Positions 4,148 through 30,149 of a stretch of DNA of 36,478 bases are shown one piece after another (the stretch's first letter is position 1; each line of letters opens with the position of its first letter). The notes beneath the pieces were generated by a model. It was not told where the DNA came from. It saw only the letters and a program-made list of their open reading frames with translations, and ran no database searches. Source of the DNA: a virus; the IMG/VR virus record IMGVR_UViG_3300020418_000015, positions 1 to 36,478 of that record; one strand, given 5' to 3'. The position numbers and the translations under genes are program-made.

Positions 4148-4419
4148 TATGCTAATACTCCCTTTTCTCTCAAGGCATTAATTACTGACCCAAGAACGTT
4201 GGCATTGTTGGCCGTAGAAGTTGAGCTTGCATCTAATGATTTTGTTGTTGTTATATTTGCTGTGGAGAACTTTGTATTAATATCTCCAACATTAGCGGCT
4301 TGACTTAAGTTGTCAAAGTTTTGCTCTAGTGCATCTACTAACTCACTTGCCCATACAGTAGGATCATCTCCCTCTGATAGTCTTGGTAGTGGTGCTACTG
4401 TAAATCTACTTGTTGCCAT
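4147..4419 (-). CDS. Small hypothetical late protein
   Basis: A 90-residue acidic protein (start MATSRFTVAPLPRLSEGDDP) with an Asn/Ser/Thr-rich second half and a short helical C-terminus (VLGSVINALREKGVLA). The gene is locked between its neighbours by one-base overlaps at both ends (TAATG-type junctions), which argues for a real, translationally coupled gene. It follows the large 973-residue protein, so a small partner or assembly factor for that protein is plausible. I recognise no domain and assign no function. Confidence 0.65.
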   Translation of the reverse strand: MATSRFTVAPLPRLSEGDDPTVWASELVDALEQNFDNLSQAANVGDINTKFSTANITTTKSLDASSTSTANNANVLGSVINALREKGVLA

Positions 4420-7340
4420 TATCTCTCTCCATCTGGCCTCATGTTTAACCTAAGATCACCTAATCTCCAATGATCATGTAATCCATCAGAATGAACTTTT
4501 ACTTTCATTTGTCTTCCTCTCACTCTAGGATTAATTCTTCCTGTCTTGGAGTAGTTTACTCCAGAGATAGTTACATCTCTATTTCTTACAGTAAATGGGC
4601 CTTTGGTTGTATAATCACCTAAACTGTCTTTCCTAGAGCTAAAGGTAATATTATAAGTCTCATCATATGTCCCATCCTCTTTGTCGGTTGACGTAGCATC
4701 TGGTAGTGCCTTATCTACAAACATAATATTCTGACCATCGTCTATATCAAAGTCTGCACTTTCAACAAAAGCATTGATAGGTGATCCGTCATCGGTTGTT
4801 CCTACTTCTTGATTGTATAGAACTCTATTTGCATCAGCCGAAATATCGTTTTCAAAGATTGATCCACCTTCCCAAGCTGTTCTGCTAAATGTTCCTACAT
4901 CCCATACGTTTTCTAAATAATTATACTTAACGTATCGGTTGTTCTCTCGGTTTTGACCTGCTGCGTTTGTTGATGTAGTCTCATCGTTTGTAGATATACT
5001 AGGATAAAACCACCAGATCTCGTTGTACCCCCTAGATGTCCCTGTAACAACCTTAAATTGTTCGGCATAATTGAAATCCTCAAAGACATATTTTGCTACA
5101 GGAGAAGGAAGAACTTTAACCCCACCATCGAAGACGAAAAAGTTTTTAAATCCCATCCAATAACACCTTCCCTGAATAGCCATTGCTCCATGTGGAGAAA
5201 TAAGACCACAGTTATTACCAAGCTCTTTAAAACCGAAAGTATATGGTGGGCCTTGGAAAACCATACCATGAACGTTCTTATCGCTAAACAAAAGCGTTTG
5301 CCCTCTTACCTTGGCATATCCCACTAAGAATGTACCACCTGTAAGGATCTGACCCCCTGATGTATTTGTATCAACGTTCTCTGTCCAAATGTTTGTAGTT
5401 TCTTGACTTGCCCAACGTACCTTCATTGGATCACCTGCTCCCAAACAAACAATGTGCCTATCTGGAGAAGTGACGAAAATACTCTTTACGCTTGTTGGGA
5501 CAATACCATGTGTAGAGTTATTTCTGCCTGATTGAGGTGTACTTGGGTTTGTTGCGTTTGTGATTTGGACAGCAGCCGTACCTACACCACCAGAAGTATC
5601 CCAATAATGAGGAGCACCATTGTTGTGAGCAAGAACGAGGTCTTCACCAAAATTATCAAAGCTCCAAACTCTTGGATCAACTACAACATTAGATGTAGAA
5701 GCAGGTTGACCCCAACCCCTTGTATAACTAGATCCTGCTTGCCAAACACCTGTTCCCCATCCGTAAGCGAAGTTAGAGTGTTCTTCTCCAGATTCTACAG
5801 GCTTTGTTATTGTAACATCTGTTGTCCCACCTGAAGAAATAGCAGGAAAGGCTGTAAGGCTTGCATCGTAGGCCGTGGACTGTGTTTCTCTTGATAACCC
5901 TACTGTAACAGAACCTAATAAATCCCATCCATTATCGAGATCGGTATTATGTGGATTTGAAGTATTTGCTCCACCTGTAGAGCCTAGTTTTACATAGTAT
6001 ATGTCATCGATCTCTGCGTACCAATGTTTTGAATATGTTATTTTAGATTCAGCATTAGAAAATCCCTGAACCCCAAGAATGTAGATACTTTCGGTAACAG
6101 TCGTACCTTCGTAAGTCTTTCCTGTAACCCCTATGTAAGCTGAAGGATATGAGTCTGTATAGCTTTCATAACATCCATATTGATATGGTGTGGTGTAATT
6201 AGGATAGCCTGAACTTGGTAAGTTAATTCCGTGATTGCCTACTACAACTCTTCTAGCACATGGTCTGTTATTTTTATCGGTAACAACATTTCCTAACATA
6301 TGATTGGCCAGAGATGCATCAGAAATCTGGGAGCTTATTTTATGAGTTCCTTGGTGAGCCAGAATATTACCTACCCCTGTCCTTGTCCCTGCCGTAAAAA
6401 AAGTATTTGATGTGTTTTGCGTTGCATAAGGGATCATCACCCTACCTGTAGTATCAAATGGGGCAGACCATCTTATTTGCGTTTGTAAATGACCTATTCT
6501 ACTTACATTTGGGCCTTGTGCTCCACCTATATAATAACTAGAACCGGGTGAATATGTTTCTGATCCAAGAAAGTATGCTGTGACCCCTCTGGCAGTATAA
6601 CCTGCTATAGATGTATAATTAAGTATTGTTCCAGAGTCGTAAGTTGATGGTAAAAGAATGTCAAAATAGTTTGTTGTGTTATTAACGATTGTAGCAGATA
6701 GTTTTGGTATTCTAATCTCACCTATGTTAAGATTATTAAAATAGTAAGCTATAGGTGTTCCATTTGATCCGTTGGTAGGAACTCCGTGTGATGATTTGTA
6801 AAACCTTAGTATTGGGCCTTCTGACCTTGCATTTGTGCCACTTGAACCAGATATATCTGGAGATGTACTATAGGCCCAACCATAATCCCTTTCTTGATCT
6901 CCATACTGTGTATCAGTCCCCAACGCAACACTTGTTGTTGAATCCTTTGCTTGTGGATAATAACAAACCATATGTCCATAATCTGTAGACGCAATAGCAG
7001 GATGGAATTGGTTAGATCCTGTGTCTTGCAAGTCTAATGTTACAGTAGAGAACGAAGGATCAGCAGGAGTAATGTCGTAAAGAATGCCATCTTTTAGTAT
7101 GTAAATATTAGTATGTGTTCCTATCGCTAAAAGCCTGTTGTCGTTAAAGTCTCTCCAAGAATGCAAAGCTCTAGCTGCCCCACCAAAACTGTCGTTGATA
7201 GTTTTTTCCCAACCACCAATCTTCTGTGCTCGACCATTGTAAAAGCGTACCTTATCGGAGTCTACCCATCTTCCTTCAGAAGAATAGACTGTATCATCTT
7301 TTACTACGCCACCTTGTATGGCTATCTTCTTTAATGCCAT
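4419..7340 (-). CDS. Large tail/connector-associated structural protein (beta-propeller-like N-terminus)
   Basis: A 973-residue protein, the largest in the window. The N-terminal part (about residues 1-95) has the pattern 'new frame, sequence IGGWEK, then RALHSWRDFNDNRLLAIGTH and IYILKDGILYDITP', typical of phage stabilisation proteins that open with beta-propeller blades. A later conserved block (about residues 690-760) reads GLISPHGAMAIQGRCYWMGF then FFVFDGGVKVLPSPV, another propeller-like repeat common in marine phage late proteins. The central part is Ser/Thr/Gly/Tyr-rich and beta-like. P22 gp10-like head-closure or tail-hub proteins have comparable architecture. I infer a tail hub or packaged-DNA stabilisation protein with moderate certainty; homology to gp10 itself is not shown. 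Confidence 0.8.
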   Translation of the reverse strand: MALKKIAIQGGVVKDDTVYSSEGRWVDSDKVRFYNGRAQKIGGWEKTINDSFGGAARALHSWRDFNDNRLLAIGTHTNIYILKDGILYDITPADPSFSTVTLDLQDTGSNQFHPAIASTDYGHMVCYYPQAKDSTTSVALGTDTQYGDQERDYGWAYSTSPDISGSSGTNARSEGPILRFYKSSHGVPTNGSNGTPIAYYFNNLNIGEIRIPKLSATIVNNTTNYFDILLPSTYDSGTILNYTSIAGYTARGVTAYFLGSETYSPGSSYYIGGAQGPNVSRIGHLQTQIRWSAPFDTTGRVMIPYATQNTSNTFFTAGTRTGVGNILAHQGTHKISSQISDASLANHMLGNVVTDKNNRPCARRVVVGNHGINLPSSGYPNYTTPYQYGCYESYTDSYPSAYIGVTGKTYEGTTVTESIYILGVQGFSNAESKITYSKHWYAEIDDIYYVKLGSTGGANTSNPHNTDLDNGWDLLGSVTVGLSRETQSTAYDASLTAFPAISSGGTTDVTITKPVESGEEHSNFAYGWGTGVWQAGSSYTRGWGQPASTSNVVVDPRVWSFDNFGEDLVLAHNNGAPHYWDTSGGVGTAAVQITNATNPSTPQSGRNNSTHGIVPTSVKSIFVTSPDRHIVCLGAGDPMKVRWASQETTNIWTENVDTNTSGGQILTGGTFLVGYAKVRGQTLLFSDKNVHGMVFQGPPYTFGFKELGNNCGLISPHGAMAIQGRCYWMGFKNFFVFDGGVKVLPSPVAKYVFEDFNYAEQFKVVTGTSRGYNEIWWFYPSISTNDETTSTNAAGQNRENNRYVKYNYLENVWDVGTFSRTAWEGGSIFENDISADANRVLYNQEVGTTDDGSPINAFVESADFDIDDGQNIMFVDKALPDATSTDKEDGTYDETYNITFSSRKDSLGDYTTKGPFTVRNRDVTISGVNYSKTGRINPRVRGRQMKVKVHSDGLHDHWRLGDLRLNMRPDGER

Positions 7341-7784: not shown

Positions 7785-8195
7785 TCAAAAATCCTTCTCT
7801 GGCCATGTTACGTTATGAGGAAATCCCTCTTGCTGTGGGACATCCAAAAGCTTTTGTCTGTAGTCTCTAATCTTATTTTGTTTTTCCTCTGGTTGCTCAT
7901 CCCAACGCATAAAATTCATCACATAAGAATCCACTTGTTCTTGTAACAAAATATCCCTCCACCTTCGCACTTCCATTGCCTTTAGATCATCCAACTCTTC
8001 TTGTGTTGGTGGAACATACGGATCTGGATTCGATTTAACTAAATCCTCATATAGTTTTTGTACATTAACATCCGAACCATAATCGTCAGGAACAACTGTA
8101 AAAGGTATCCACCCATGTTGGGGATGGTTAATCTCACAATCAATACAAGTTTCGTTGATGTACTTTGCGTTTTTAAATTCTTTAATTTCAATCAT
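7785..8195 (-). CDS. Phage tail-fibre assembly chaperone-like protein
   Basis: A 136-residue protein whose C-terminal half fits the phage tail assembly chaperone family (Phage_tail_APC type): an R-x-W-R-D-x-LL helix near residues 70-85, then YRQKLLDVPQQEGFPHNVTW. The N-terminal half (residues 1-60) is beta-rich with two Cys (C17, C20). Its start codon overlaps the stop of the preceding fibre gene at 8195, the usual arrangement for a chaperone that folds or joins the fibre encoded just before it. I infer it assists the 345-residue fibre. A second gene of the same type lies at 11145-11501. Confidence 0.7.
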   Translation of the reverse strand: MIEIKEFKNAKYINETCIDCEINHPQHGWIPFTVVPDDYGSDVNVQKLYEDLVKSNPDPYVPPTQEELDDLKAMEVRRWRDILLQEQVDSYVMNFMRWDEQPEEKQNKIRDYRQKLLDVPQQEGFPHNVTWPEKDF

Positions 8196-11144: not shown

Positions 11145-11501
11145 CTATTCTGGTTTAGTTGGCCAGTCTGACTCTTTTAAATTAGGCCAGTTCTCATGCG
11201 TGGGTAAATCTCGCAAAGCTTGTCTATAAGACTGCCACTTAGTTCGAGTTTCTTCTGGAACATCTGGTTGTTGTGTCCAATCAGTAGAAGCTAAGTAACT
11301 ATTTCGCATCCTTCTAAACATACTTGCCATTTGCTCATCTTGAGTGCCACTAAAAATGGGTTCATTTATTAATTCTTCATTATTGTGATGTTCAACAATC
11401 CAATCTTTTTCTTCTTCAGTAAGCACTTTTGGTTCACTAGACCCTGCAATGTAAGCAGGGAAATTATCCCAATCAATATCGTCTTTTGTAATTTTGCTCA
11501 T
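11145..11501 (-). CDS. Phage tail-fibre assembly chaperone-like protein
   Basis: A 118-residue protein. The C-terminal half is a clear match to the tail assembly chaperone pattern: FRRMRNSYLASTDWTQQPDV, then W-x-x-YRQALRDLP and a closing WP-x-KPE. The gene overlaps the 3' end of the 910-residue fibre by 4 bases (11498-11501), so translation is probably coupled. I infer that it helps fold or attach that fibre. It is the second chaperone-like gene here; the other (7785-8195) follows the smaller fibre. Confidence 0.8.
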   Translation of the reverse strand: MSKITKDDIDWDNFPAYIAGSSEPKVLTEEEKDWIVEHHNNEELINEPIFSGTQDEQMASMFRRMRNSYLASTDWTQQPDVPEETRTKWQSYRQALRDLPTHENWPNLKESDWPTKPE

Positions 11502-17521: not shown

Positions 17522-17959
17522 CTACTTCAATTCGATAGACAGATTGCCTGTGTTGATTCTGAAGATGTCCAAGTTGCCTATAGTTTTTGAAGCATCTAAC
17601 GCTCCTACAAACAAAATATTTCCAGATGTAGATGCATCGGCCACGAAAGCGTGTGTGATTGTTTGGTTGGTAACTGAACTCCCAGACGCAGGAAACTCTA
17701 CATTGGCCGCGTTGGCGGCTGTTACAGTTCCAGCTGATGTAGATATTGTCCATCCACCTGATGTTCCGTTAACTTGCTGTCTAGCGTAGTTTGTAAATGT
17801 TGCTTCTGTTAACGAACCTGCTTCTGCATCAGATACGGCAGTCGCAAGACCCACATAAAGATTCGCTGCAGGTGTTGCAAAAGAACCTGAATTATTGTCG
17901 AAGATAAATTTTATTAATTTCTCCTCTAGATAGTTTGTTGCTGCATTAGCTGTAGCCAT
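17522..17959 (-). CDS. Phage tail fibre-associated protein (Gp80-like)
   Basis: A 145-residue protein with the usual pattern of this phage family: a short N-terminal helix (NYLEEKLIKFIFD), then ANLYVGLATA, a YARQ segment, ITHAFVADASTSGNILFVGA and a C-terminal FRINTGNLSIEL. Comparable proteins are annotated as Gp80-domain or small tail-fibre proteins. It lies between the adaptor protein and another small virion protein with 3-4 base gaps. I infer a virion role; the exact position is unknown. Confidence 0.7.
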   Translation of the reverse strand: MATANAATNYLEEKLIKFIFDNNSGSFATPAANLYVGLATAVSDAEAGSLTEATFTNYARQQVNGTSGGWTISTSAGTVTAANAANVEFPASGSSVTNQTITHAFVADASTSGNILFVGALDASKTIGNLDIFRINTGNLSIELK

Positions 17960-17962
17960 TTT

Positions 17963-18922
17963 TTAACCCTCACTTTTTTGGTAAAAATTGTCGATTGATA
18001 ACCTCATGTTTCCTTCTTTATTTATAGCCTGTACTGAGGTTTGATACAGAGCTAAATACTTTTGAACCATAGCATCGTTTCTATTGAAACTGCCAGCCTC
18101 AACTAAACAACCATACAGAAGAACGTCATAAGCGTTGTCTGTGAGCCAATTAGTAAGATTAGCTGTACTATCGGTTACAGTAATATTTGCACCCATGCCA
18201 TTTCCGTGTGTCGTGCAGTAATATTTTAAACTGCTTGGAGCATCAGACGGAACAACAAAGGTAGTCTTTGCCCCTGCCTGTCCCAGAACCCCTTCATTGG
18301 TAACACCTGTATTGTAACTCGAATCATCAGCCGTTCTAAATGCTATTTGATGCGTTGCGTTAGTACTATCGCTTTGATCGAAGATGTAAGTGTTTCCTCT
18401 GGCAAGAGACAAAGTAGGAGCGACTGAATTATTTAAGAGGAATTTATTTCCTCCGTATGAAACAACTGCAACAGTATAGGTTGTAGATGCTGTACCACCT
18501 GCCCCCAAAGCAGGTAATCTTCTTCTATAGGATATTTCTATATTAGTATTTGACGCAGGAGTAGGGGCGACATACAAAGCAGAATTGTCATAGTAAGAAT
18601 AGTATTTAGGCGTTCCTGTAACTGTTCTATTTGGCCAAAACTCCATCATAAATTCATCTGACCTAAGAAGAAGTATTTTTCTTACATTTGCGTCAACAAG
18701 ATGTAAGTTTTCTAAAACAACTAAATCAGCAGGTAATGTTATAAAAGCATCATTCTGCGAAAGAGAGCTAGTAGCTCTTTGCCTAAAGGCAGGTAGAACA
18801 AGATCTCTTGAAAGCTTAAGTTCGGTAATATCAATAAAGGTATCTATAGCAGCTGAGAACTCCGTTCCATCGTCTTCCATATAGTTCTTTATGTCCGTTA
18901 CTAACGTATTGTAATTAGGCAT
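17963..18922 (-). CDS. Head-tail adaptor-like protein with inserted cupredoxin-like domain
   Basis: A 319-residue protein made of two interleaved parts. Residues 1-140 and 253-319 match the phage adaptor pattern: VTDIKNYMEDDGTEF, IDTFIDITELKLSRDL, FITLPAD, TGTPKYY, IEISYRRRLPAL, then LTNWLTDNAYDVLLYGCLVE. In ordinary members I know, PALS...TNWL is continuous. Here residues 142-252 interrupt it with a beta-rich domain resembling a cupredoxin. It has THQIAF (H191), a Gly-rich loop, and KYYCTTHGNGMG with C236, H239 and M243, the four ligand types of a type-1 copper site. The host part is inferred to sit between portal and tail. Copper binding is inferred from sequence only. Starts one base inside the upstream stop. 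Confidence 0.85.
   Translation of the reverse strand: MPNYNTLVTDIKNYMEDDGTEFSAAIDTFIDITELKLSRDLVLPAFRQRATSSLSQNDAFITLPADLVVLENLHLVDANVRKILLLRSDEFMMEFWPNRTVTGTPKYYSYYDNSALYVAPTPASNTNIEISYRRRLPALGAGGTASTTYTVAVVSYGGNKFLLNNSVAPTLSLARGNTYIFDQSDSTNATHQIAFRTADDSSYNTGVTNEGVLGQAGAKTTFVVPSDAPSSLKYYCTTHGNGMGANITVTDSTANLTNWLTDNAYDVLLYGCLVEAGSFNRNDAMVQKYLALYQTSVQAINKEGNMRLSIDNFYQKSEG
18167..18499 (-). other. Cupredoxin-like insertion (H191, C236, H239, M243)
   Basis: This marks the inserted segment in the adaptor gene. It contains the strand-loop TLSLARGNTYIFDQSDSTNA, then H191, the Gly/Ala-rich stretch, and C-x2-H-x3-M. Plastocyanin and pseudoazurin use H...C-x2-H-x4-M, and amicyanin uses C-x2-H-x2-M, so the spacing lies within the known range. 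Confidence 0.65.
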
Positions 18923-19203
18923 TAGGATGTAACTCCTGCTGTATGTGGAAATCTATTATTAAACGCTGTATTGTTCGTTGCCACCTGATCTGCATCTGGT
19001 CTTGGATCTCGTAAGGCTTGTGGATCTACGACTTTTTCTTTCCCTAGGCGTAACTGTGGGTGATCTTCATCGTAACAAGGTGGACAAACACGAAGACCAT
19101 TTCTTCTTCCGTTTTCTACCTCTTCTCTTAATTGACTATACTTATATTGTTGTCCACATCTATCGCATACAGCTAAAGCGTATTTCCCACTTGCGTAACT
19201 CAT
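18922..19203 (-). CDS. Small zinc-ribbon late protein
   Basis: A 93-residue protein with two CxxC pairs, C13-C16 and C40-C43, which would bind one zinc. The family pattern is SYASGKYALAVCDRCGQQYK, then LRVCPPCYDEDHPQL and a Pro/Asp-rich tail with DPQALRDPRPD. I recall this as a common small protein beside adaptor genes in marine podovirus-like phages. Both ends share one base with neighbouring genes, so it is translated together with the two adaptor-like proteins. Its role in the virion is unknown. Confidence 0.75.
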   Translation of the reverse strand: MSYASGKYALAVCDRCGQQYKYSQLREEVENGRRNGLRVCPPCYDEDHPQLRLGKEKVVDPQALRDPRPDADQVATNNTAFNNRFPHTAGVTS

Positions 19204-19883
19204 TATGTCACCTTGGGAGTAATTTTAAAATCAGATCTGTCTCTGTCTTCCTGCGCGGCTAGACTAAAATCTTCATCATATATTTGCTTTAACATTGGAA
19301 CTCTGTCCATCGTGTTAGGATTTTTTAACGCAATATGATATGAAAGTCCTGATACGATTGCAGGGAGAAATCTAGTTGGTGCATCATATTGAGTAATAGA
19401 TCCTGATGTTGAGTCTTCTATCATGCTTACATAGTAGTAGACCAAAGTATAAGTATCATTGTCTGGGACTGGCCAAGGATAAAGTCTTGGGCCATCTCTA
19501 AGTCTTTCTATGTAAAGTTTATTAGGTCTTCCTGTGCTGTTTTTATTTGTAAGGGATGCCCACTCACCTAATGACATTCTGGTTATAGCAAGATCTGATT
19601 GACCTGTTCCAGAGCCTGTCCTAACGGAATGATCTAATATAGCCAAGACATAGCTTGGTAGAGTATAAGATCCACCACCTTGATTGAGAGAAAGCGTACC
19701 TTCTCTTATTGTCCAAAGATTAATACCTTTATTGGCAAACTCTTGACCAAGAAGATTAAGACTCCTTCTGGCAGTTCTGTAGTCTGCACCAGAATAGGCT
19801 CTTCCTAGTCCTGCTCGCTCATGTGCTTCTTCGACAATCTCATCGATGTCGAGATTGAAGCTGTAACTTCCACTTGTTGCCAT
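19203..19883 (-). CDS. Head-tail adaptor/connector-like protein
   Basis: A 226-residue protein beginning SFNLDIDEIVEEAHERAGL, then DYRTARRSLNLLGQEFANKG and INLWTIREGTL. This is the N-terminal helical pattern of P22 gp4/T7 gp11-type adaptor proteins. The middle holds TLPSYVLAILDHSVR, ITRMSLGEWASL, TGRPNKLYIERL and a YPWPVPDNDTYTLVYYYV strand set. These proteins bind under the portal and stabilise packaged DNA. A strong SD (AGGGA, six bases from the ATG) supports the start. It is the first of two adaptor-like genes, the second being the cupredoxin-containing one. Confidence 0.75.
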   Translation of the reverse strand: MATSGSYSFNLDIDEIVEEAHERAGLGRAYSGADYRTARRSLNLLGQEFANKGINLWTIREGTLSLNQGGGSYTLPSYVLAILDHSVRTGSGTGQSDLAITRMSLGEWASLTNKNSTGRPNKLYIERLRDGPRLYPWPVPDNDTYTLVYYYVSMIEDSTSGSITQYDAPTRFLPAIVSGLSYHIALKNPNTMDRVPMLKQIYDEDFSLAAQEDRDRSDFKITPKVT

Positions 19884-21626: not shown

Positions 21627-22532
21627 TTAAGCTCCGGGAGATCCGAAAATCCCTAGAGGATCAGAGTACCCAAATGAATACCTCTCTCTACCCTTGTACT
21701 TAACATTACCTGTCTCAAAGTCGCCTTCCATAGAAGTCTTCATTGCGACACGAACAAAGTGCTTTAAGCCATTTGCTACGTCTGTAGTTAAGAACCAAGC
21801 GTCTGGATCGGTTAAGAAATGGTGTACCATATATCCACCTGGAATTGCAGATGTAGACGCAAGAGCGTTAACATCATTGTCGGCAGTTCCTGCCCTCATT
21901 GTAGACTTGAGGATTCTCTCTGCTTCAAATTGCAAGTCAGATGGGATGATTAACTTTTGAGGTCTGGCCGCAATTTTCAGCCCTCTCTCATCAGTCCATT
22001 TCCCTATTTGGATAACAGCAGCCTCTAGAGAAGTCTCATTCAAATCAGCAGGTGTGCTTGGTTCGTTAGAGTTCGTTCCACCATTCACCAATGGATGTGC
22101 TGTGGAAAGAAGGTTAACGCCATCACCACCAACTTGACCTGTAAAGCCTTCGTTAAGTACTGCAGCTCCTTTAATCTCTTTAGTGTGCTGAAAAGCACGA
22201 GCTAAAGCTTTAGTATATCTAGCAGACAAACTTGCATAAAGGTTATCTTCGATTGCTTCTTCAGTTAACGAGAAACCCATAGCGATAGTATTGTGTACGT
22301 ATCTGCTTGTATAGGCTTCTTGTGCATCGTCATAAGTAATCGCAGCGCCTTCATCCTTAGTACCTGCTAAACCGAAGCCAGATAATTTGACTTCTTCTTC
22401 AAACGATCTATCAGAGTTTTCAGTCTCAAAGACTTGTCTCCACTCTTCTGGATGCTGTTTGTATTCTAAACCGAACAAACTATTCAAACCTGGGAGTAGT
22501 TCCTTCAGTAATTGGGATCTTGATATAGCCAT
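21627..22532 (-). CDS. Major capsid protein (Mu gpT-like, HK97 fold)
   Basis: A 301-residue protein. Its pattern matches gpT-type major head proteins: MAISRSQLLKELLPGLNSLF, FEEEVKLSGFGLAGTKDEGA, YDDAQEAYTSRYVHNTIAMG, LTEEAIEDNLYASLSARYTK, then ADLNETSLEAAVIQI, GLKIAARPQKLIIPSDL, LTDPDAWFLTT and RERYSFGYSDPLGIFG. About 300 residues is normal for the family, so it looks complete. There is no N-terminal protease-processed delta domain; a separate scaffold is encoded upstream (23650-24594). It is followed by a terminator-like hairpin. Confidence 0.92.
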   Translation of the reverse strand: MAISRSQLLKELLPGLNSLFGLEYKQHPEEWRQVFETENSDRSFEEEVKLSGFGLAGTKDEGAAITYDDAQEAYTSRYVHNTIAMGFSLTEEAIEDNLYASLSARYTKALARAFQHTKEIKGAAVLNEGFTGQVGGDGVNLLSTAHPLVNGGTNSNEPSTPADLNETSLEAAVIQIGKWTDERGLKIAARPQKLIIPSDLQFEAERILKSTMRAGTADNDVNALASTSAIPGGYMVHHFLTDPDAWFLTTDVANGLKHFVRVAMKTSMEGDFETGNVKYKGRERYSFGYSDPLGIFGSPGA

Positions 22533-23649: not shown

Positions 23650-24594
23650 TCAATTATTTAAAGCGACAAACTCTTTGGCGTAATCTTCTAGAGATACACC
23701 CAAGCGATTGGCGACTGCCACTTGTGATGGCGTTAGACGGACTTTGCGTGACTTGTTAGCTACCTGATTACCCGCTGGGGTAACCATTGGCTGTTGGGTC
23801 ACAGGTTTCTGTGTTTCCTTCGGCTTATCCGTTTCTTCCTCGGAAAACTTGTGTGGGAGTTCTCTTCGCAAACGAGAATCCAATGTGTCATAATACTCAT
23901 CGGAATCTACTTGCACTCCCCCTCGGACTATATCGTCATGGATGGTATAAGCGACATTAGTCATTACCATATCACGATTAAACCAAGGATTTCGTGATGC
24001 CCACTCAACAGCTTTTGTGTTAGGTGGTGCTTTCAACTCTGGTTGTTGTTGTTTACCGATGTTTTCAGCTACCCTTTTCATCTGTCCCACTTGAGACTTC
24101 TGTGCCGTAGCTTCCATCATCTGTTGTTGTGCTAGAGCTATCTTCTCTGCGTCCCCTTCTTCGTAGGCTCTTTTGAAGGCCTCCTTGGCAGATTCGACTT
24201 GGCTCTTAATTCTATTTTCAAACTCGGTGCTGCCGAACTCTCCAAACTTGCTTGCTTGCTCTCTAAGTTCTTTATTTTCGTTGAGAACCTTTTGAGCGAC
24301 TGAATAATATTCATCTCTCTGTCTTTCAGCCTCTCGTTGTCTTTTCGTAAGGTCATCAATTCGCTTTTGGAATTTGGTCTTACCCTGCTTGCTAGGACTC
24401 GGTTCAGCTTCTTTTTCTTCAGTCTCTGCTTTAGTTTCGACAGATTCGTCAGTCTTGGTATCTTCCTGTGTCTCGACAGGGGTGCTTTCAGCAGCATTAT
24501 CTGCTTCTTCAAGCTTAACATCTACCTCAACTTCTTCCTCTTTTAGTTGATCTTCGCTAATTACAGCTTCTTCTGTTTGTTTTTCTACACTCAT
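23650..24594 (-). CDS. Capsid scaffolding protein
   Basis: A 314-residue protein. The first 70 residues are strongly acidic (Glu/Asp-rich, repeated VETKxE and EEKEAE patterns). Residues about 72-185 are a long charged coiled coil (FQKRIDDLTKRQREAERQRD, and AYEEGDAEKIALAQQQMME). The C-terminal part contains a short RKVRLTPSQVAVANRLGVS helix, which likely binds the coat protein. Acidic N-terminus, coiled coil and C-terminal basic helix are the usual scaffold layout. It is next to the head genes and 4 bases overlap the GroES-like gene (ATGA). No protease is visible, so removal of the scaffold would be by exit, as in P22. Confidence 0.85.
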   Translation of the reverse strand: MSVEKQTEEAVISEDQLKEEEVEVDVKLEEADNAAESTPVETQEDTKTDESVETKAETEEKEAEPSPSKQGKTKFQKRIDDLTKRQREAERQRDEYYSVAQKVLNENKELREQASKFGEFGSTEFENRIKSQVESAKEAFKRAYEEGDAEKIALAQQQMMEATAQKSQVGQMKRVAENIGKQQQPELKAPPNTKAVEWASRNPWFNRDMVMTNVAYTIHDDIVRGGVQVDSDEYYDTLDSRLRRELPHKFSEEETDKPKETQKPVTQQPMVTPAGNQVANKSRKVRLTPSQVAVANRLGVSLEDYAKEFVALNN

Positions 24595-24968
24595 GCGTTG
24601 GCCCTCGAAATTTTAGTTGGATCTTTAATAACAGCGAGGACTGAATCATCGTTGATAATTCTCATTTCCACGCCATCGTACTCAAAGCGATGACCGACAT
24701 ATTTAGATAAGACTACCCAATCTCCGACTTTACACCATGCTTTACCACGAAAGCGATGATCTTCGTTTGGATAACAGTTATTTCCAAGCGTAACAACTTT
24801 TGCCACGATTGAAGCGATATCTTCCTTATCTTTGATATCGGATGGAAGTATAATACCTCCTTTGGTTTGTTCCTCTACTTTAGGAACGACAACAAGAATG
24901 TGATATCCTGTTGGTGTTGGTGCGTCATCTGGAATGACGACATTTGCAGTAGAATATACTGATGACAT
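24591..24968 (-). CDS. GroES-like co-chaperonin (phage cpn10)
   Basis: A 125-residue protein matching cpn10 along most of its length. Residues 18-31 (TPTGYHILVVVPKV) form the first strand. The mobile loop at about 33-47 (EQTKGGIILPSDI) carries the IIL hydrophobic tripeptide that contacts GroEL. The C-terminal barrel includes KVGDWVVLSKYVGHRFEYDG and DDSVLAVI. A 15-residue N-terminal extension and a short insertion make it longer than host GroES (about 97). Like T4 gp31, it probably replaces host GroES to fold the capsid protein, which fits its place beside scaffold and capsid genes. The SD is inside a hairpin (see 24969-24994). Confidence 0.85.
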   Translation of the reverse strand: MSSVYSTANVVIPDDAPTPTGYHILVVVPKVEEQTKGGIILPSDIKDKEDIASIVAKVVTLGNNCYPNEDHRFRGKAWCKVGDWVVLSKYVGHRFEYDGVEMRIINDDSVLAVIKDPTKISRANA

Positions 24969-25405: not shown

Positions 25406-27814
25406 TTAGCTCCGATTCAGTTTATCCGTCTTAATAAGGTCAACTTGCATTTTGGCTTCTGCTAAGTCCTTTTGCTGTTGTAACCTTTCACGCTCTAAAT
25501 CGTTCCTCATCTTAGTCTTTTCTATATCTGTTTTAGCATCAAGTAAAGCTTCTTGTTGATCTTGTTTAATTTTTTCTCTTTCAATCTGAAGCTCTGCTTG
25601 CTGTTGCTGTATAACAGGATCTTGAGCAGCTTGCATTTGTCTCTCAAGAACGGCTTGTTGTTGTGCCTTTCCTGTGATTTGAGCTGCTGCTTGAGCTGCC
25701 TGTCTAGATATTTGTGCTTCCATTTGCTCTGGAAGACCTTTCTTTTCTTTATCTTCTAGAGGTGGAAGTTGAACTCCCATCATCTTCTCGGCTTCATTTC
25801 TATATTTATGAGCCATATGCTCACTAATATGAGCACTAATAGATTGACCTACTTGCTGTGCCATAGGATGTTTTTGCATATCTGGTGACTGCATTAAGCT
25901 CATATGGGCAGCTAAATGTGCATCGTGATCTTGGTAAGCAAAAGACTTTACTGGGCCACCACCAATCATTCTAGCATTCTCTGTTACAGGATCATACGGA
26001 GGTATCTCACTTTGATCTGGTAAGATTTTATCAATATTATCCAAACCTGCTGTTTCTAAGAATCTTCTATGCAGTTCCTTTAAGTCATAAAGCTGTGGAG
26101 CTTGTGCTGCCACTTGTAGGGCAGCTTGCTGTTGCATCATCCTTTGAGCAAAACTAGTCGCATTGGGATCACTTACAGGTATAATATCTACTCTATCGTC
26201 AAAGTCTTGTTGTATATTTCCATTCTCCTCGTAAGGATATTGAGAAATAGAGCTACTAATAATCTTAGAAAGTAACCCAAGCTCCCTCTTCATACTTGCG
26301 TGTAATCTAGCATGGATGGCCGACATTACCTTCATAGACCTTTCAATTAGTGCTAGTGTTGTTCCAACAGGAGCTTCTTGGTTGCCATCACCTACCTGTA
26401 GGTCTGCTATCGAGGCGAATCTTCTTCCCTCTTCTACCAAAACACCTAGTAATTGTGCTAACGTTCCTGATGGCTCTTTGAATGGCAAGGGCATAAGATT
26501 ATCCCTTATTGCACCACTTGGAAGATCAATGTCTCTAAATTCACCTGGTGATATTGGTGTATCGTCACCTTTGATCCTAAGTCCACGAGCTTTAAAACCT
26601 GCTGGTAAGTTGGATAAAGTCCCTGCGTCTATAAGTTGACGCAAGATCGATGTTGATGACTTGGCTATGTTTCCTATAAGGTGGATTAATCCAAATCCGT
26701 AAAATCCCAAGCCTGGCTGAAACTTGTAGTGTACAAAGTGTTGTATTGGTTGCTTTAGTGGATCACTCTCGGAATAATTCTGGCGTATCGAAAGGATGGT
26801 ATCACTTGCTTCGTCAATGGTGACGATGTATGGGACGGCAATTCCTGTTCCTTCTCCGTCTTCGTTTTGGTCTTCATATCCTTCGATGTCGAGTTCGCAA
26901 TGGACTTCGAGGATGGTTCGGAGGTCGTTTTCACTAACTTCGGTAACACCTGTAAGTTCGTTGTATTTGGTTTTGACATCTGATGTCCCTTCTATAGCCT
27001 CGGTTAAATCTACATCACGATAAAAACCTGATACTTGCAACTTCTTTACAAAGTTATCAGACTTCTGCATAACATGGGTATGCCTTGATGATGTTGTTAG
27101 ATCCGTTGTATTATATGCAACAACGAGATCCTCGGCAGGTACGAATACTGAAGTTGGTCTTTGATGATGGGGATCAAAGTAAACCTTTCTAAATGCTGAC
27201 CCTGCTAGTGCCAGATTAAATAGTAGTTGCTCTGTTTCAGAACGATATTCGGTCATTTCATGCGTTAAGAGGTAGTTCATGTAGTTCTGAACTCTCTTAG
27301 CTTGCTCTGTCATCTCATCAGTCTGTCTTCCTACTGATTTAGTTTTGACTGGGCCTGACGCAGGAAATATTTCCATCATAGATTGTGAAACAAATCTTAT
27401 TGTAGCTTCACTAAGTATCGGATGGGTAACACCACAAGCTCCCTCAAAAGGTGTCGTTCTGTCTTCAGATTTAATTCCTAGAAGATCTAAACCATCGGTA
27501 TATGTGGTGACCCAATCCTCTCTAGATGCTTTGTCTTCCTCGTACTGTGCTATCAAATCTGATGCAATACCTTGAAGCACCTCCTCATCTAGAATCTCTG
27601 CTATGTTCTCGCCAAACTTTGCCCCAGACATTCCTTCAGTAGATTCTGGATCAAAGTCAACTTCCACACCTCCATCGTCCATCTCAATAACAATAGCCTC
27701 TTCAGATACATTCAACATATCCTCTTCCGTAGGCTCTACGTCTGCACCATTAAGAAGTGGTTTAGAAGAAGTCTCTTCCTGTATTTGTTGATCGATAGAC
27801 TTTTCAACTGCCAT
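25406..27814 (-). CDS. Portal protein (P22-type)
   Basis: An 802-residue protein with the hallmarks of a large portal. It has an acidic N-terminal extension (residues 1-80), the core SREDWVTTYTDGLDLLGIKS, then EGACGVTHPILSEATIRFVS and LLFNLALAGSAFRKVYFDPH. Later come LPSGAIRDNLMPLPF, EAPVGTTLALIERSMKVMSA and a long C-terminal Gln/Ala/Glu-rich coiled coil (about 690-795) resembling the P22 barrel helix. It forms the dodecameric ring through which DNA enters the head. Order (TerL, basic protein, portal, scaffold, capsid) is classical. The Gln-rich end looks complete. Confidence 0.92.
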   Translation of the reverse strand: MAVEKSIDQQIQEETSSKPLLNGADVEPTEEDMLNVSEEAIVIEMDDGGVEVDFDPESTEGMSGAKFGENIAEILDEEVLQGIASDLIAQYEEDKASREDWVTTYTDGLDLLGIKSEDRTTPFEGACGVTHPILSEATIRFVSQSMMEIFPASGPVKTKSVGRQTDEMTEQAKRVQNYMNYLLTHEMTEYRSETEQLLFNLALAGSAFRKVYFDPHHQRPTSVFVPAEDLVVAYNTTDLTTSSRHTHVMQKSDNFVKKLQVSGFYRDVDLTEAIEGTSDVKTKYNELTGVTEVSENDLRTILEVHCELDIEGYEDQNEDGEGTGIAVPYIVTIDEASDTILSIRQNYSESDPLKQPIQHFVHYKFQPGLGFYGFGLIHLIGNIAKSSTSILRQLIDAGTLSNLPAGFKARGLRIKGDDTPISPGEFRDIDLPSGAIRDNLMPLPFKEPSGTLAQLLGVLVEEGRRFASIADLQVGDGNQEAPVGTTLALIERSMKVMSAIHARLHASMKRELGLLSKIISSSISQYPYEENGNIQQDFDDRVDIIPVSDPNATSFAQRMMQQQAALQVAAQAPQLYDLKELHRRFLETAGLDNIDKILPDQSEIPPYDPVTENARMIGGGPVKSFAYQDHDAHLAAHMSLMQSPDMQKHPMAQQVGQSISAHISEHMAHKYRNEAEKMMGVQLPPLEDKEKKGLPEQMEAQISRQAAQAAAQITGKAQQQAVLERQMQAAQDPVIQQQQAELQIEREKIKQDQQEALLDAKTDIEKTKMRNDLERERLQQQKDLAEAKMQVDLIKTDKLNRS

Positions 27815-28643: not shown

Positions 28644-30149
28644 CTAATAATAAGATTTATTTTGTTTCCACCAAGGGGTTGGTTCGTCTTCGTAATCCGA
28701 TGGTAATGATATAAACCCACCTTGTCTAAAACGCATCAAGGCAAGTGTAGTACAGTCCACTAAGTCATCGTGACTGCCATTGGGAAAACTAGCACATTGT
28801 TCTATTACTTGTTCAGCCCAACGAGTCGGAGGATGCCATACCAGACCACTCGCAAAAATGTCAGAAACGGCATTAACACGAGAGAGTTTATCCTGACCAC
28901 GAGACGGAGTATAGTCTGTGACAGGTATTCCAGAAGCTCGTAGCTCCTGTATAAGGGGAAGTCCCGCTGCTTTTGCTTCCACCAAGAAAGCATCAGGTTC
29001 ATACTGATGATATAATTCATGGGTACGTTGTTTAAGCTCTGGGAACTCAAGTTTTTCATTAACCGAATCAAGAAGGATAATATTTGGTACATTGTCTCCT
29101 ACCTCATTTGGATGTTCAAATACTCCCCAAGTCGTAATAGCCGAATAGTCAGATCTGGCTGACTTAGTGTGTGCCGTGTCGATTGACTGTATAATGAAGG
29201 TGCATTGTGGTGGACTTACGTTATTCCACTCTTGCCAATACTCCCTCTTAATTAGAGCACCTTCCTCGGCTGTAGGTGTTTGTTGATACTGACTAAGCCA
29301 CTTACCCAATGGAAGTTCGGCCTTTAGAGCATCTAGTTCTTTCTTTGGCCAAAACTCTGGCCAGAGAGGTTCACCATTTTCGTAAACGGCAGGTAGTTCT
29401 ATAACTTCCCACTTGTCCGAACCCTCTCTTTGACTTGTGGTTTCTAGTATTTTAGCTGTTAGATCAAGCTGTGACCACCTCGTCATTACAATAACGATAG
29501 CTCCACCTGGTTGTAATCTCTGTCGAGGGCCAGATGAATACCACTCGTAAACACTATCAAAGTATTCCATCGTGGGATTAATACCTGCTGATTCAGTATG
29601 TGGATCGTCAATCACAAGCAAGTCTGCACCACGACCTGTCATTGCACCACCTACACCAATAGCAAAATATTCACCACCACCTGATACATCCCATCGTCCT
29701 GCTGCCTTGCTGTCGGCTCTTAGCGAGACTTCTGGAAATATATCTCTGTAAGTGTCTGTATCTATTAGGTTTCTTACTTTACGTCCAAATCTTTGAGAAA
29801 ACTCTGTCGTGTGTGTTGCAGATATAATCTTTCGACTTGGGTCTTGTCCTAGTAACCAAGCAGGTAATAACCAACTTGTAAGTTCTGATTTGCCGTGTCT
29901 AGGAGCAATGTTGATGATAAGTCTTTTTAACTTACCCCTAGATACAGCTTCAAACTTTTCTGCCATTATCCTGTGATGTGGGCCTTCCATGAAGATCGGC
30001 CAACAATGTCGGACAAAAGGTAAAAACTCTTTCTTGGCTTTTTCTTTATTATTGAGCGTATTGTACTTAATAAGAGCAGCACCAATAGCCTGTCTGTGCT
30101 CTTCTGGTAACTGATCTAGGTTCTTTAGTAGTTGCTCAACTTGTGTCAA
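28644..30149 (-). CDS. terL: Terminase large subunit (packaging ATPase/nuclease)
   Basis: A 501-residue protein. The ATPase half has Walker A APRHGKSE (residues 82-89), Walker B LLVIDDP (177-183) and the coupling motif MTRW (222-225). The nuclease half carries acidic residues in the RNase H-like order: D324 (SIDTAHTKS), E391 (LVEAK) and D461/D462 (GSHDDLVD). It cuts concatemers and pumps DNA into the head with the portal. Its start overlaps the preceding gene by 4 bases (ATGA). TerS is not adjacent; a TerS-like gene lies about 5.7 kb upstream at the right edge. Confidence 0.95.
   Translation of the reverse strand: MTQVEQLLKNLDQLPEEHRQAIGAALIKYNTLNNKEKAKKEFLPFVRHCWPIFMEGPHHRIMAEKFEAVSRGKLKRLIINIAPRHGKSELTSWLLPAWLLGQDPSRKIISATHTTEFSQRFGRKVRNLIDTDTYRDIFPEVSLRADSKAAGRWDVSGGGEYFAIGVGGAMTGRGADLLVIDDPHTESAGINPTMEYFDSVYEWYSSGPRQRLQPGGAIVIVMTRWSQLDLTAKILETTSQREGSDKWEVIELPAVYENGEPLWPEFWPKKELDALKAELPLGKWLSQYQQTPTAEEGALIKREYWQEWNNVSPPQCTFIIQSIDTAHTKSARSDYSAITTWGVFEHPNEVGDNVPNIILLDSVNEKLEFPELKQRTHELYHQYEPDAFLVEAKAAGLPLIQELRASGIPVTDYTPSRGQDKLSRVNAVSDIFASGLVWHPPTRWAEQVIEQCASFPNGSHDDLVDCTTLALMRFRQGGFISLPSDYEDEPTPWWKQNKSYY

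Follow-up and report, generated by a model that had tools for sequence, protein, structure and literature searches.

Does the head-tail adaptor of a marine virus really carry a cupredoxin, and what would such a domain be doing there? The question is raised by a single minus-strand ORF in a virus record of 36,478 bases (the whole stretch analysed here, referred to below as the window), 13 kb of which is essentially identical to part of a 61-kb IMG/VR contig. A sequence-only reading had noticed that the adaptor pattern of this ORF is interrupted by about 110 residues carrying THQIAF and C236-x2-H239-x3-M243. These motifs are present as described, and residues 142-252 correspond exactly to positions 18167-18499. 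Our own reading, which we consider probable without being certain of it, is that a genuine cupredoxin, its type-1 site intact, makes up the insert, and that it is a mobile display module with a putative role in metal-loaded surface contact.

The ORF belongs to the SU10_adaptor family (PF24175), as judged from its Pfam score (81.8 bits against a cut-off of 27, E 1.1e-22) and from the adaptor fold seen in structural matches to the PDB. The PF24175 match is split into two stretches, the better one covering residues 3-151, and in PHROGs the ORF falls into phrog_2941, a head virion structural protein (E 2e-21). The full-length model was built on a reduced alignment; when rows holding the domain alone were pooled with numerous insert-free adaptors, the Cys-His-Met half was aligned wrongly. 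Its best PDB matches were the SU10 tail chains 7z47_A/B, the VP1 portal-tail and the Pa223 tail, followed by cupredoxins; its adaptor half is predicted with no more than moderate confidence. The protein therefore resembles the SU10 adaptor gp11 (PF24175; PDB 7z47) in sequence family and in top structural match, but the matching SU10 tail chains are 222-228 aa long and have no 112-aa insert. The ORF is divided as follows.

17963..18922, minus strand: 319-aa ring adaptor of the SU10 head-tail type, interrupted by the cupredoxin domain (PF24175, phrog_2941)
18506..18922, minus strand: residues 1-139, part 1 of the adaptor, with two helices plus a beta domain (from alignment with insert-free adaptors)
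18170..18505, minus strand: inserted stretch, residues 140-251, 112 aa (from empty-site alignment with related adaptors)
17966..18169, minus strand: residues 252-319, part 2 of the adaptor, forming the C-terminal helical hairpin (from alignment with insert-free adaptors)

Part 1 is predicted to contain helices at residues 4-15 and 20-40 and strands within 47-134, and part 2 helices at 262-279 and 283-318. The adaptors of five relatives (L075, L076, L077, L085 and L094), which are 62-76% identical to the window adaptor, have an empty site: they read RRRLPAL-SxxN-TNWLT (or near variants) where the window reads RRRLPAL-(112 residues)-STAN-LTNWLT. Together with the split PF24175 match, this confirms the interruption. 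In the full-length model the linkers around the insert (residues 137-144 and 253-260) have pLDDT values below 50, indicating flexibility, and the insert between them keeps its fold (pLDDT mostly >90), placed after the beta domain and ahead of the C-terminal helical hairpin. Its G+C content is 0.42, as against 0.36 for the flanks.

In SU10, the adaptors assemble on the portal into a dodecamer to which six long fibres dock, and the ring sits between portal and nozzle (PMC9509320). Portal and nozzle-family genes are both present in the window, fibre genes are found there as well, and the gene set around the adaptor is consistent with a short-tailed phage.

28644-30149: terminase
25406-27814: portal
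21627-22532: major head protein
19203-19883: second SU10-type adaptor paralogue
18922..19203, minus strand: small CxxC...CxxC (zinc-ribbon-like) gene adjoining the adaptor (phrog_28581, E 2e-8)
17522-17959: gp80-like protein
4419..7340, minus strand: nozzle-family protein without the cupredoxin domain (phrog_3287, E 5e-68)

A gene for a GroES-like co-chaperonin (24591-24968, minus strand; phrog_3188, E 8e-21) lies beside the head genes, and two different tail fibre assembly genes (7785-8195 and 11145-11501, minus strand) each adjoin fibre-like genes.

The fold of the insert was addressed by structure prediction and fold search, which defined this core.

18173..18487, minus strand: cupredoxin domain core, residues 146-250 (AF2 and Foldseek)

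The domain model, made by AF2 from 96 homologous domains, has nine strands, a mean pLDDT of 93.9 and a pTM of 0.87. Foldseek against the PDB returned cupredoxins at probability 1.00, with nitrite reductase 2dv6 at the top (E 4e-5) and further matches to rusticyanin, AcoP, pseudoazurin, laccases and plastocyanin (TM by target 0.62). These results agree with the Greek-key beta-sandwich of 7-8 strands that characterizes the cupredoxin superfamily. When the single sequence was compared with the PDB by phmmer, plastocyanin was matched weakly (E 0.005), and a profile search of PDB sequences yielded antibody and SUMO noise but no usable cupredoxin match; the evidence for the fold therefore comes from structure comparison and from hhalign. 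By hhalign, the domain family aligned over 101 columns with a Prochlorococcus protein (L181) that itself passes the Copper-bind cut-off (probability 96.7%, E 3e-10), and the pairing was His-His, Cys-Cys, His-His and Met-Met. The hhalign match to Prochlorococcus plastocyanin was weak (probability 6%). The cupredoxin-like fold proposed from the sequence is thus supported.

The phage domain failed to reach the cut-off of Copper-bind PF00127 (13.4 against 21.2 bits, E 0.11), a model matched by only 9 of the 96 domain members even at E<1, and that of the plastocyanin equivalog TIGR02656 (15.5 against 87.85 bits). It belongs with the cupredoxins by fold and ligands and therefore forms a separate family of the superfamily. 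Within PF00127 (plastocyanin/azurin), the likeness is most evident with L181, a 134-aa cupredoxin with a signal peptide: fold, ligand set and ligand order are the same, as are the first-ligand motif HP(F/L), common in the phage family, and the middle motif TTG...GTPG. However, the phage domain scores below the PF00127 cut-off, lacks a signal peptide and forms part of virion proteins. Among solved proteins, rusticyanin, AcoP and the three-domain nitrite reductase of Hyphomicrobium are the nearest structural neighbours, but they are redox proteins of cells, with 15-20% identity and TM-scores of only 0.5-0.6.

Four residues of the core make up the putative copper site.

18350..18352, minus strand: H191, first putative copper ligand (H-x-I-A-F), aligned with the Copper-bind ligand His
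18215..18217, minus strand: C236, putative thiolate ligand (Y-Y-C), Cys aligned with Cys
18206..18208, minus strand: H239, putative second His ligand, His aligned with His
18194..18196, minus strand: M243, putative axial Met ligand, Met aligned with Met

All four were complete in 43 of 43 domain clusters separated at <80% identity, and each was present in all 40 clusters separated at <60% identity (from IMG/VR, isolates and cellular genomes), the latter count being of matches that span the ligand region, with the rest checked individually. The best-conserved columns of the 40 clusters are these four, together with Y179. The set was also complete when recruitment did not depend on the motif, namely in 11/11 IMG/VR clusters found via GNTYIFDQ, a peptide free of ligand residues, and in 16/16 isolate-phage clusters found by plain tblastn; ligand conservation is therefore not a search artefact. 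The same was true of all 21 isolate domains that could be fully read by eye. The exceptions seen were one fragment cut off by the edge of L187 and two degenerate copies in L175. The latter occur in a 2195-aa protein of a SAR116 bin (L175:2280-8864), in which the first His is kept and Cys, His and Met are lost, so the scaffold can exist without the site.

The spacing across the family is C-x2-H-x2-M or C-x2-H-x3-M, and Tyr-Tyr directly precedes the thiolate Cys, as in plastocyanin. In the AF2 model (domain numbering), H51 immediately precedes a strand, C96 stands at the end of one, H99 belongs to a loop and M103 to the strand that follows, and this modelled topology is that of a type-1 site. 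Topology and profile alignment together place the four residues where true cupredoxins have theirs, which suggests that they would converge on one point in space. The cluster counts and the hhalign pairing thus agree with the canonical His ... Cys-x(n)-His-x(n)-Met pattern of the superfamily, and the type-1 order of His, Cys, His and Met claimed earlier stands. Both fold and site are strongly supported, and we infer that the domain binds copper (or a substitute soft metal).

The domain is found in 130 isolate phage records, mostly of cyanophages but also of Pelagibacter and Methylophilales phages, and in several hundred IMG/VR contigs. Prochlorococcus phage Syn1 and Pelagibacter phage EXVC032P are examples of isolates that have it in a structural protein. 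Its carriers are outer virion parts (nozzle, gp9-like connector, fibres, minor tail and zinc-ribbon neck), with up to two tandem copies, and homology shows that they are exposed on the virion. Nozzle proteins (phrog_3287) of L009 and L133 carry the domain in their C-terminal part, and the L133 protein matches the PDB nozzle gp16 of phage VP1. Gp9-like baseplate-fibre connectors (phrog_677; so annotated in S-ShM2, ACG-2014d, ACG-2014g and S-SSM7), tail fibres (phrog_30742, phrog_21412 and phrog_1640) and minor tail proteins (phrog_18) carry it as well, and in S-TIM66 it occurs in a structural protein whose gene is the second one downstream of the portal. The domains in phrog_677 (gp9-like baseplate wedge/tail fibre connector) and phrog_30742 are homologous to the one studied here (E 3e-14 and 9e-14, respectively), but they sit at the connector C-terminus or within fibres rather than in the neck ring, and PHROGs gives the domain no cupredoxin name.

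Some relatives of the phage have one copy (L086-L093) or two (L038-L044) of the domain fused C-terminally to the zinc-ribbon-like protein next to the adaptor. In others it lies in the gene that follows the adaptor downstream (L031, L033 and L124) or at a greater distance (L094 and L096). Among the loci of these relatives, placement inside the adaptor is confined to the window lineage. The search for the same domain elsewhere thus succeeded, and the earlier claim is partly supported: insertion in a head-tail adaptor is upheld by PF24175 and the empty site, but the domain is not confined to this protein, as many marine phage virion proteins carry it. Since the domain is widespread and mobile in marine phage virions, the connector site is one case of a general pattern. 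In the tree, the window insert lies nearest to nozzle-borne copies (support 0.83) rather than to the zinc-ribbon fusions; a move into the adaptor from the adjacent zinc-ribbon gene is therefore unsupported.

Two further features of the window may be recorded here. The small CxxC...CxxC protein (18922-19203, minus strand) lies between the two adaptor paralogues, and in most related phages it is found beside the adaptor. The nozzle-family protein (4419-7340, minus strand) does not carry the domain in the C-terminal part where L009 and L133 have it, as seen by BLASTP; it has 973 aa against the 524 positions of the phrog_3287 model, the extra ~450 residues falling mostly in its N-terminal half.

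Cellular carriers are marine, and by prediction they resemble surface lipoproteins with collagen-like or lamin-tail spacers. Poseidoniales proteins combine the domain with a lipobox-like CSG and collagen repeats, and SAR86 proteins combine it with a lipobox-like start and lamin-tail domains. Lipoprotein-like proteins of Marine Group II archaea and SAR86 (L164:4287-5309 and L177:3063-5324) have the domain at their C-terminus. It is also found in a giant Prochlorococcus protein, together with Big_5/CopC-like repeats. Some of the "cellular" contigs may themselves be phage. The domain thus resembles, in phages and cells alike, a module displayed by exposed proteins.

The following reading is compatible with these results. 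Flanked by flexible linkers, the predicted cupredoxin interrupts the adaptor in the loop that joins the beta domain to the C-terminal helical hairpin, and the adaptor is one placement of a mobile module that marine phages attach to various exposed virion proteins. SU10 adaptors being dodecameric (PMC9509320), twelve copies of the domain would be expected around the neck of each virion if the same holds here. The domain would probably be made metal-free in the host cytoplasm and be loaded later, after lysis or at the host surface, with a single copper ion (or a comparable soft metal). With its metal bound, the barrel could then serve as a rigid and stable surface unit making contact with ligands of the host or the environment, a role that would be one of contact and not enzymatic, like that proposed for Ig-like domains on other phages. 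Ig-like domains in phage structural proteins are mobile beta-sandwich modules found at many exposed virion sites. They differ from the present domain in belonging to another fold family and in having no metal site.

Three other roles were weighed against display. The first is electron transfer, in which the virion cupredoxin would swap electrons with periplasmic or membrane partners of the host at entry, for example altering the redox state of the injection site. The intact type-1 site with its plastocyanin-like Tyr-Tyr-Cys fits this idea, and electron carriers are the nearest functional homologues. However, neither a gene for a redox partner nor another redox centre was recognised next to the domain in the window or the loci, and the neck ring is distant from the host membrane. 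Moreover, many virion positions and tandem copies suit display better than a specific redox partnership. The varied positions and the lack of recognised partner genes therefore argue against a dedicated electron chain; we regard this role as rather unlikely, and nothing seen here indicated an electron partner for the redox domain suggested earlier.

Secondly, the virion might carry metal as a "Trojan horse", its copper aiding attachment to a host metal-uptake receptor or serving to supply or withhold a scarce metal. Type-1 sites bury one copper each, no link to a copper receptor was found, and the placements include the neck and not only fibre tips. In favour of it, the domain conserves its metal site and sits on exposed parts of marine phages, and there is a published precedent in the HxH-bound iron of T4-type fibres, extended as a hypothesis to marine phages (PMC11705849). 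Those motifs likewise place a metal site on exposed virion parts, but they hold octahedral, His-coordinated iron in trimeric fibres, in contrast to the monomeric cupredoxin site. We give this possibility little credence.

Thirdly, and to our minds no less improbably, the domain could be a metal-free adhesion or decoration fold that merely inherited the motif. Weakly adhesive beta-sandwich modules are a common feature of virions, and the degenerate SAR116 copy has lost the Cys, second His and Met ligands. Yet the four ligands are top-conserved over 40 clusters that are <60% identical to one another, and an unpaired Cys with no task would not be expected to stay invariant. This strict conservation argues against a metal-free role. 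Finally, although the source is metagenomic, a chimeric assembly or a frame error fusing two genes can be dismissed, because identical insertion junctions occur in four other IMG/VR contigs (one with the insert 93% and the flanking DNA 95% identical), the frame is open and both adaptor halves are intact.

Metal-loaded display thus remains our preferred reading. No description of a phage-virion cupredoxin was found in the literature (open-licence PMC papers): what is known is the fold, and what is new is its general setting in phage virions. Cupredoxins are textbook electron carriers of cells. Here, strictly conserved ligands in a domain shuffled among neck, nozzle, baseplate and fibre proteins point to a metal-dependent virion function, and from the distribution it seems that metal, probably copper, is borne on the exterior of many ocean viruses. 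A broader proposal, possible but doubtful, is that a large share of marine tailed phages bear type-1 copper proteins externally, with several to twelve or more copies each, obtain the copper from seawater or the dying host, and need it for infection or stability. If true, virion metalloproteins would gain a new class and viruses a new link to ocean copper, and the notion of marine virions that bear metal would reach beyond iron to copper.

A name can now be given to a domain that is unlabelled in several phage protein families. One phage protein with two tandem domains (L038:3380-4567) also passes the cut-off of PF25489, the plant At5g54830-like domain (29.3 against 27 bits). This match hints at a wider relation of the phage domain and suggests that the plant domain may be cupredoxin-like as well.
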